Origin: Phycicoccus endophyticus
GTDB taxonomy: Bacteria; Actinomycetota; Actinomycetes; Actinomycetales; Dermatophilaceae
DNA: 64,000 nt
Direction of reading: 5' to 3'
NCBI RefSeq assembly: GCF_011326735.1
Contig: NZ_JAANCN010000003.1
Location: 62,001-126,000, forward strand
Part shown: in pieces, positions 21,883 through 23,168 of the stretch
Position numbering within the stretch: position 1 is the stretch's first letter
Layout of the letters: each line of letters begins with the position of its first letter
The notes under the pieces: model-generated
The model's input: the letters and a program-made list of their open reading frames with translations, nothing else
What the model was told of the DNA's origin: nothing
Databases searched by the model: none
Translations under genes and position numbers: made by a program

Positions 21883-22325
21883 CACTGGGCCACCTGGGTG
21901 ATCTCGAAGGGCTGGGGCTGCTGGGCAGCGTGCGGGTGCTCGGCGCCGGCGTAGACCTTGAGCTTGGTCAGCTGCTGGCGACCGAGGGAGGTCTTGGGGA
22001 GCATGCCGCGCACGGCCTTCTCGACCGCCTTCTCCGGGTGCTTGGCGAGCAGGTCGGTGTAGGACTGCGAGCTCAGGCCGCCGGGGAAGCCGGAGTGCCG
22101 GTAGGCCCGCTTCTGCTCGGCCTTGGCGCCGGTGAGGGCGACCTTGTCGGCGTTGATGACGATGACGAAGTCGCCGGTGTCGACGTGCGGGGCGAAGGTC
22201 GGCTTGTGCTTGCCGCGCAGCAGGGTCGCCACCTGGGTGGCGAGACGGCCGAGGACGACGTCCGTGGCGTCGATGACGTGCCACGCGCGGGTGATCTCGC
22301 CCGGCTTGGGGGTGTAGGTACGCAT
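21882..22325 (-). CDS. rplM: 50S ribosomal protein L13
   Basis: Early-assembly protein of the large subunit, 147 residues. Conserved segments are [15 protein letters not shown] at about residue 15, [16 protein letters not shown] at about 50 and [18 protein letters not shown] near 110. It is the first gene of the rplM-rpsI operon; a promoter with a TATACT -10 box lies about 95 bases upstream. Confidence 0.97.
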
Positions 22326-22420
22326 GGGAGCTTCCTGTCGATGATGACGGGGGGTCGTGTGCTGCGTGCTCTCGGGAGGGCGCGGGTCCGTCGCGACAGC
22401 GCGCGGCACACCAGCCATCG

Positions 22421-22450
22421 AGTATAGGGGCCCGCCGAGGGCGGTCCTAA
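22421..22450 (-). promoter_or_regulatory. rplM-rpsI promoter
   Basis: On the minus strand TTAGGA (22450-22445) and an excellent TATACT box (22426-22421) are separated by 18 bases. The predicted start near 22414 gives a leader of about 90 bases before the rplM ATG. Confidence 0.6.
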
Positions 22451-22509
22451 TCGATGCCCGGTCCCCGCGACACCCCCTCCCACCTGCGAGGACGCCGACC
22501 CCGACCACA

Positions 22510-22553
22510 GTGCACGCCAGTTGTGCAAACAGACTGTGCACAGGTAGTGTGCA
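22510..22553 (+). promoter_or_regulatory. Four GTGCA iterons at 13-bp period overlapping the ArsR-type promoter
   Basis: GTGCA occurs at 22510, 22523, 22536 and 22549, exactly 13 bases apart each time. The array covers a possible -35 (TTGTGC, 22521-22526) and -10 (TAGTGT, 22545-22550, 18-base spacer). The -10 ends six bases before the ATG, so the message is probably leaderless. A palindrome TGTGCACA at 22535-22542 lies inside. The repeats are good candidates for autoregulatory operators of the downstream HTH protein. Confidence 0.6.
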
Positions 22554-22556
22554 TCT

Positions 22557-23168
22557 ATGAGCACTCCTTCGTCGCCCGACGGCCGGCTCACCGGCCTCCG
22601 GCTGGACGCCGCCGCCCTGAAGACCCTCGCCCACCCCCTGCGCAGCCGGCTGCTCACGGCCCTGCGCGTGGGTGGACCGGCGACCGCCACCGACCTGGCC
22701 GCGCAGCTCGGCACGAACTCGGGCGCGACCTCCTACCACCTGCGGCGGCTGGAGTCGGTCGGGCTCGTCGCCGACACCGGCGACGGTGAGGGCAGACGGC
22801 GGCTGTGGCGCGCCGCCACCGAGAGCCACCAGTGGGAGCCGAGCGACTTCGCCGACGACGAGGACGCCGAGACCGCCCTGGGGTGGCTGCAGCGCGACTA
22901 CTCGCGCCACCTCGGGGAGCGGTTCGAGCGCTGGCTCGACGTCGAGCCCGGCTGGCCACCGGCGTGGCGGGACGCGATGGGGATGGACGACTCGTGGGTC
23001 CTCGCCACCCCCGAGCAGGCCCGCGCCATGCGGGCCGAGCTCGACGACGTCGTCGCGCGCTACCGCCGGGTCGGCCAGGGCAGCCCCTCGGCCCGACGGG
23101 TCGCCGTCTACGCCGTGCTCTACCCCGTCGACCTCGACCGACCGCCGCGCGGGGGCACGTCCGGATGA
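22557..23168 (+). CDS. ArsR-type winged-helix transcriptional regulator
   Basis: Regulator of 203 residues. An ArsR-like winged helix spans about residues 18-85: [16 protein letters not shown], then [28 protein letters not shown] as recognition helix region, then a [10 protein letters not shown] wing. The longer C-terminal part (about 90-200) is Trp-rich and resembles the effector part of regulators paired with drug exporters. No ArsR metal-binding CxC motif is present, so the signal is probably organic. Its TGA overlaps the transporter ATG (ATGA). Four GTGCA boxes cover its promoter. Confidence 0.85.

Follow-up and report, generated by a model that had tools for sequence, protein, structure and literature searches.

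Regularly spaced DNA boxes in variable number over a promoter are known from the met boxes of MetJ, the direct repeats of BldC and the overlapping repeats of Fur, and in the case of MetJ and BldC one unit binds to each box. The folds of these proteins are unlike that of the regulator described here. For ArsR/SmtB metalloregulators a cysteine-based metal site is one of the usual site types. Among ArsR-like proteins, Rv2034 of Mycobacterium tuberculosis is described as an autorepressor of its own promoter with a single inverted repeat that has a 4-base spacer (PMC3338718).

We analysed a stretch of 64,000 nucleotides from Phycicoccus endophyticus (the window) in which four GTGCA boxes precede a gene for an ArsR-like regulator. 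We propose that this array is the autoregulatory operator of the adjacent HTH_20/ArsR-like regulator, which would repress itself and an MFS exporter gene via overlapping dyads that share their boxes; we put the probability of this reading at about 0.78. An inverted repeat of facing half-sites is present at the regulator's own promoter (dyads 2 and 3 in Table 1), and the facing half-sites with a 4-base spacer described for Rv2034 resemble the GCAAAG-N4-CTTTGC dyads that we found in relatives with a 14-bp period. However, Rv2034 has one palindrome whereas a chain of box-sharing dyads is found here, and the half-site sequences are unrelated (PMC3338718).

The array and its promoter

On the plus strand GTGCA starts at 22510, 22523, 22536 and 22549. 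The final copy ends at 22553, and the ATG of the regulator gene follows three bases further on. An earlier note on this DNA had pointed out the four copies at an exact 13-bp period, and the repeat proved to be real and beyond chance: the spaced pair GTGCA-N8-GTGCA has three matches in the window, all of them in the array, compared to a mean of 0.12 and a maximum of 1 in 100 dinucleotide-preserving shuffles. In the whole genome (3.18 Mb, 21 contigs) the same pattern matches six times, as often as the reversed-pattern control, and the three matches of the window form the sole chain. The pattern TRTGCA-N7-TRTGCA matches twice, both times in the array (control 0). Within its own genome the strict dyad TGCAnA-N5-TnTGCA is confined to the window array (control 0) and no large regulon was seen by this pattern; control by the regulator is therefore probably local. 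Dyad 1 of the window is imperfect because box 1 lacks both flank letters. A terminator-like match at the array turned out to be the box palindrome itself and was rejected. Rfam gave two weak miRNA matches, both outside the array.

Table 1. Features of the array, its promoter and the two genes behind it
Feature	Position	Strand	Remark
Box 1, AGTGCACG	22509..22516	+	TGCA core intact; two flank letters differ from TnTGCAnA
Box 2, TGTGCAAA	22522..22529	+	overlaps the -35
Box 3, TGTGCACA	22535..22542	+	in the promoter spacer; TGCA core in 97% of 78 aligned orthologous promoters
Box 4, TGTGCATC	22548..22555	+	overlaps the -10 and extends to the start codon
Dyad 1, TGCA..TGCA over boxes 1-2	22511..22527	.	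single flank letter off consensus; missed by the strict pattern
Dyad 2, TGCAnA-N5-TnTGCA over boxes 2-3	22524..22540	.	strict pattern match
Dyad 3, TGCAnA-N5-TnTGCA over boxes 3-4	22537..22553	.	strict pattern match
Predicted -35, TTGTGC	22521..22526	+	identical hexamer in 59/78 aligned orthologous promoters
Predicted -10, TAGTGT	22545..22550	+	TAnnnT in 74/78 aligned orthologous promoters
HTH_20/ArsR-like regulator, 203 aa, no cysteine	22557..23168	+	Pfam profiles, translation
MFS transporter, 423 aa	23165..24436	+	ATG overlaps the TGA of the regulator gene

The array lies over the -35, the spacer and the -10 and its last GTGCA stops before the ATG, as had been supposed in the earlier note. 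The spacer between the two hexamers measures 18 bp in the window promoter, read from the sequence and the orthologue alignment, and a simple sigma-70 consensus scan called no promoter at the array. This alignment comprises 78 of 81 loci, as L085, L088 and L092 could not be anchored, and the register of L084 and L087, where the array stops far upstream, may be wrong in it. The start codon stands 6-7 bases past the -10 in 75 of the 78 aligned promoters, a distance that is partly given by construction because the alignment anchor required box 4 to be followed by a start codon within 1-5 bases. The predicted transcript would be leaderless and start at the ATG at 22557. The ribosomal gene rplM is located upstream and runs divergently from a start at 22325. 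Between rplM and the array (22380-22500), short stretches appeared conserved by eye, namely forms of TTTACGG, CCCAAATCG and CTGACCTGCG, and likewise in near loci with rplM. They are probably the divergent rplM promoter.

Conservation at orthologous loci

For comparison, 80 orthologous loci were kept from a protein search of GTDB genomes, which gives 81 together with the window. The closest matches of the regulator come from Phycicoccus (84-91% identity over the best segment; L013, L014, L020 and L022). Conservation of the 13-bp period in orthologous promoters had been set as a check beforehand, and it holds in 69 of the 81 loci, where three or more boxes that match TGTGCA with up to one mismatch follow each other at this step. 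At every other step from 8 to 21, at least three boxes were found in 0 of 81 loci. The chain has five boxes in 6 loci, four in 33, three in 30 and two in 7, and a single box without a chain is left in 5. Moreover, the exact triple-box pattern occurs in 76 of 149 family genomes with only 1 match of the reversed control, and the regulator was encoded in the same stretch at all 30 triple-array loci that were fetched. The strict dyad was found in 49 of 59 family genomes (0-4 each), in total 88 times versus 19 times for the reversed control.

The coupling of the regulator to an MFS gene, also put forward in the earlier note, recurs at 62 of the 80 orthologous loci, where an MFS gene lies downstream on the same strand. 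At least three boxes are present at 59 of these 62 loci versus 9 of the 18 without a detected MFS gene; in five of the 18, however, the remaining contig that could be judged is shorter than 1,400 bases, and the group with shorter arrays is also the more diverged one. A higher number of boxes and the exporter gene may go together. The rplM gene was detected at 68 of 80 loci, and among the 12 loci lacking it 11 retain at least three boxes; L081 has two. In L088 (1780-2992) the regulator gene comes second behind a gene for an AI-2E-family transporter. None of the array stands directly before the regulator gene there, and two boxes 13 bp apart precede the first gene. We read this as an operator that is moved along with its operon. 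From such arrangements, we consider that the array is linked to the regulator gene rather than to its neighbours. Deviating positions were also seen: in L084, L085 and L087 the array consists of three boxes at 13 bp, and a considerable distance separates its end from the start codon downstream. By eye, ATGGCTGCA at the start codon of L042-L048 and L053 provides an extra TGCA core 13 bp past box 4, within the coding sequence.

Orientation of the half-sites

The earlier note had contrasted a direct-repeat array with the palindromes usual for ArsR-type operators. This contrast could not be upheld. The box TnTGCAnA is itself a palindrome, and the core therefore cannot separate direct from inverted repeats, so that the flank letters have to be considered. 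Both flank letters are conserved in box 2 (T 0.96, A 0.85) and in box 3 (T 0.92, A 0.87). In box 1 the inner A reaches 0.72 versus 0.45 for the outer T, and in box 4 the inner T reaches 0.92 versus 0.45 for the outer A. Counted singly, terminal boxes 1 with an intact core (n=34) show the inner letter only in 15 cases, the outer only in 1, both in 12 and neither in 6, and for box 4 with its core (n=67) the corresponding numbers are 33, 2, 31 and 1. This pattern of conservation indicates that half-sites are paired across the spacer between two boxes, facing one another. It points to an ArsR-type dyad between the boxes as the recognised unit, with neighbouring dyads sharing one box; its form would be TGCAnA-N5-TnTGCA in the window and GCAAAG-N4-CTTTGC elsewhere. 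We favour the dyad between boxes as the unit because the end boxes keep their inner halves and because operators with a single dyad exist in relatives (L195, L262, L268, L089 and L090, identified by eye). The look of a 13-bp direct repeat would arise because neighbouring dyads share a box.

True direct repeats, on which one winged-helix monomer per box would bind cooperatively, head to tail and in the same orientation as for BldC, are an improbable alternative. The exact 13-bp period speaks for them. So does the left G that is common to boxes 2-4 (0.76-0.82), the mirror C being weaker (0.17, 0.29 and 0.62). BldC-like binding would call for asymmetric boxes in a single orientation; the core here is palindromic, and the same-way left G suits the head-to-tail reading better. 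Dyads may not fully account for it. Nevertheless, a palindromic core, the loss of mainly the outer half from the end boxes and the single-dyad operators named above all argue against it. It was the terminal-box test, with the inner-half bias of the end boxes, that led us to abandon simple direct repeats as the leading interpretation.

If dyads that share boxes are the recognised units, either all of them or only alternate ones could be occupied. Three-box arrays are frequent and conservation extends to the halves of the middle dyad, which would favour use of every dyad; yet at a shared box there may be competition between two recognition helices. Alternate use, in which the boxes are bound in pairs, is disfavoured since two-dyad arrays (three boxes, 41 loci) are about as frequent as three-dyad arrays (43 loci), and since conservation in the halves that face the middle dyad (0.85 and 0.92) is on a par with that in the others.

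The operator in the wider actinobacterial family

We extended the comparison to 145 further homologues, 27-72% identical, from phylum- and class-wide genome samples, in which relatives were found at the thresholds used in 50 of 396 and 131 of 394 genomes. They comprise 62 non-own matches of one search and 83, mostly best-scoring, of a larger match list. The lags between repeated 6-mers upstream of the starts show peaks at 13 and 14, and harmonics appear at 26 and 28. Lag 13 stands out in the nearest group (57 versus 2 expected) and lag 14 in two more distant groups (134 versus 4 and 184 versus 7 expected). Minor peaks were seen at lag 23 in the nearest group (33 versus 1) and at lag 9 in the middle group (31 versus 5).

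Assigned by locus, the period is 14 bp in 84 and 13 bp in 19 of the 145 homologues, and 42 received no assignment. The classifier combined a palindrome-plus-neighbours score of at least 13 (the maximum in 226 shuffles was 12) with a three-unit score of at least 17 (the 99th percentile of shuffles). By the three-unit score alone, 68 loci were called at 14, 17 at 13 and 8 at other periods or as ties, while 52 gave no call (8 of 93 called off-period). Since the classifier is insensitive to the shorter box of the near clade, where 10 of 81 loci pass, periods in this clade were taken from other scoring, which placed 69 of 81 at 13, one at 10, one at 12 and 10 below threshold. On a protein tree (FastTree, with many weak forks) the period changes three times compared to 29 times with shuffled labels; the labels of the window and 13 near orthologues were set to 13 from the box-step count and not by the classifier.

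The inner-half bias of the near clade recurs in these relatives. In 92 loci we scored 321 positions that neighbour CTTTGCAAAG-like boxes at 14 bp. Of these positions, 70 hold both halves, 92 the inner half only and 3 the outer half only, besides 46 with the inner and a partial outer half, 12 with the outer and a partial inner half and 98 with neither. Step 13 yielded 13 positions with both halves, 9 inner-only and 1 outer-only, and steps 10-12 and 15-17 almost nothing. Among 83 representatives (one per 60% identity cluster of the 145), inner-only positions number 44 and outer-only positions 2. Exact facing halves GCAAAG...CTTTGC in the representatives stand 4 bp apart in 18 pairs and 3 bp apart in 4.

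These counts also bear on an arrangement like that of the met boxes, in which one dimer would occupy each palindromic box and the dimers would lie side by side. The box is indeed a palindrome of 8-10 bp and its copy number varies. However, if the whole box were the unit, no bias between the inner and outer halves of the end boxes would be expected, whereas 92 versus 3 of the 321 positions and 44 versus 2 in the representatives were counted. Besides, the half-sites of a single box are about 4-5 bp apart, which in our structural judgement is tight for a winged-helix dimer. We regard this arrangement as still less likely than head-to-tail monomers. In contrast to the one unit per box of MetJ and BldC, the half-sites here face each other between the boxes.

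Several single loci deserve mention. L231 has a 13-bp array (CTTTGCAAAG, 3-bp spacers) within the 14-bp clade, beside L241, which amounts to a natural one-base period change among close relatives. Some four-box arrays, in L149, L157 and L242, look palindromic overall, with the outer boxes as inverted halves. A paralogue in the window's own genome (L008, 34%) has an operator of a different type: TTCACA-TT-TGTGAA stands upstream, accompanied by a third TTCACA at 22 bp from the first, and no chain at 13 or 14 bp was found in this region.

The regulator protein

The earlier note had called the regulator ArsR-type, in agreement with two profiles that both exceed their Pfam cut-offs, HTH_20 (50.7 bits, cut-off 27) and HTH_5 (37.7 bits, cut-off 22). 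The NCBIfam profile HTH_metalloreg stays below its cut-off (49.3 bits, cut-off 55) and the 203-aa translation holds no cysteine. Therefore, the protein is ArsR-like but atypical as a metal sensor. Its predicted model (mean pLDDT 88.7) shows an ArsR-type winged helix, behind which come a long helix (102-132) and a further one (152-169). Among solved structures, Kfla_6221 of Kribbella flavida (PDB 4g6q, 'functionally unknown') is the nearest in fold over the full length; it is the first Foldseek row (E 1.4e-06) and aligns with Z 10.9 over 168 residues, an rmsd of 5.0 and 16% identity. Chains of ArsR, CzrA and CadC reach Z 11-12 against the model. The winged-helix core is common to the regulator and the ArsR/SmtB metal sensors CzrA, CadC and SmtB (Z ~10-12 over 77-91 residues); unlike them, the regulator combines the missing cysteines and the low metalloregulator score with a longer C-terminal part.

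The recognition helix comprises residues 55-67. Among the 145 homologues S59, H61 and L65 are invariant and R63 is found in 142. When the homologues are sorted by box, residues 53-58 vary with the box type: in most of the rows listed, TNSGAT-like residues go with TGTGCA, ESSGAT-like with TTGCAA, VNSGTA-like with TTCGCGAA and EAPSLV-like with TTGCGCAA. Exceptions are 6 of the 18 loci sorted under TGTGCA, which have period 14 and include L158, L167 and L186 with other helices. The pair T53-N54 was seen at period 13 (15 loci) but never at period 14, and E53-S54 mainly at period 14 (45 loci, compared to 2 of period 13). A scan of residues against the period ranked positions 68, 30, 110 and 53 at the top; at residue 53, most period-13 loci have T (15 of 19) and most period-14 loci have E (56 of 84). 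Such covariation of helix and box would be expected of a recognition surface, yet it is confounded by descent, and with only three period changes on the tree the link between helix and period is indistinguishable from descent.

The boxes could also serve another DNA-binding protein or be promoter elements, the regulator gene being merely the first one of the transcript. Boxes 2 and 4 overlap the -35 and the -10, as this would suggest. The core promoter, however, demands no particular sequence of its spacer, and it is box 3 in the spacer that has the most conserved core of all boxes. Moreover, the array accompanies homologous regulators with varied neighbours across much of the phylum, and box type and helix residues of the regulator differ together. 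We consider such a role of the boxes very unlikely. Chance or a recent functionless tandem duplication, for which nothing speaks beyond the presence of repeats, was rejected as practically negligible given the shuffles, the conservation in 69 of 81 loci and down to ~54% protein identity, and the inter-box spacers of the window array, which are unlike from unit to unit.

Discussion

Taken as an operator of box-sharing dyads, the array suggests the following mechanism. A homodimer of the regulator would be centred between two boxes on the inter-box dyad, and dimers along the chain would cover the -35, the spacer, the -10 and the start codon of the leaderless transcript. The regulator would thereby repress its own promoter and hence the MFS exporter gene, whose ATG overlaps the stop codon of the regulator gene. 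A ligand, perhaps a substrate of the MFS exporter, might release the dimers. The cooperative or side-by-side binding suggested in the earlier note is plausible on such an array. At 10.5 bp per turn, a distance of 13 bp between dyad centres corresponds to ~86 degrees beyond a full turn and one of 14 bp to ~120 degrees.

More tentatively, and with somewhat less than even odds, we suggest that the regulator belongs to a large actinobacterial HTH_20 family with one operator grammar, in which dyads sharing boxes are chained in variable number at a lineage-specific period of 13 or 14 bp. Dimers would sit on adjacent dyads simultaneously and sheathe the promoter as they wind around the DNA, each dimer advancing by roughly a quarter of a turn at 13 bp and a third at 14 bp, and the start of the recognition helix would set the box sequence.

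Among the open-access literature matches listed, judged by titles and the starts of abstracts, there was no description of chained box-sharing operators in this regulator family. The single inverted repeat of an ArsR-like autorepressor is already known from Rv2034 (PMC3338718), and the chained variant appears to be new. It offers a simple rule to find the operators of many unstudied actinobacterial regulators and gives hints as to which residues of the recognition helix pair with which box. The predicted stacking of dimers on shared half-sites is directly testable with short DNA fragments. The array also illustrates that conspicuous direct repeats can in truth be overlapping palindromes.
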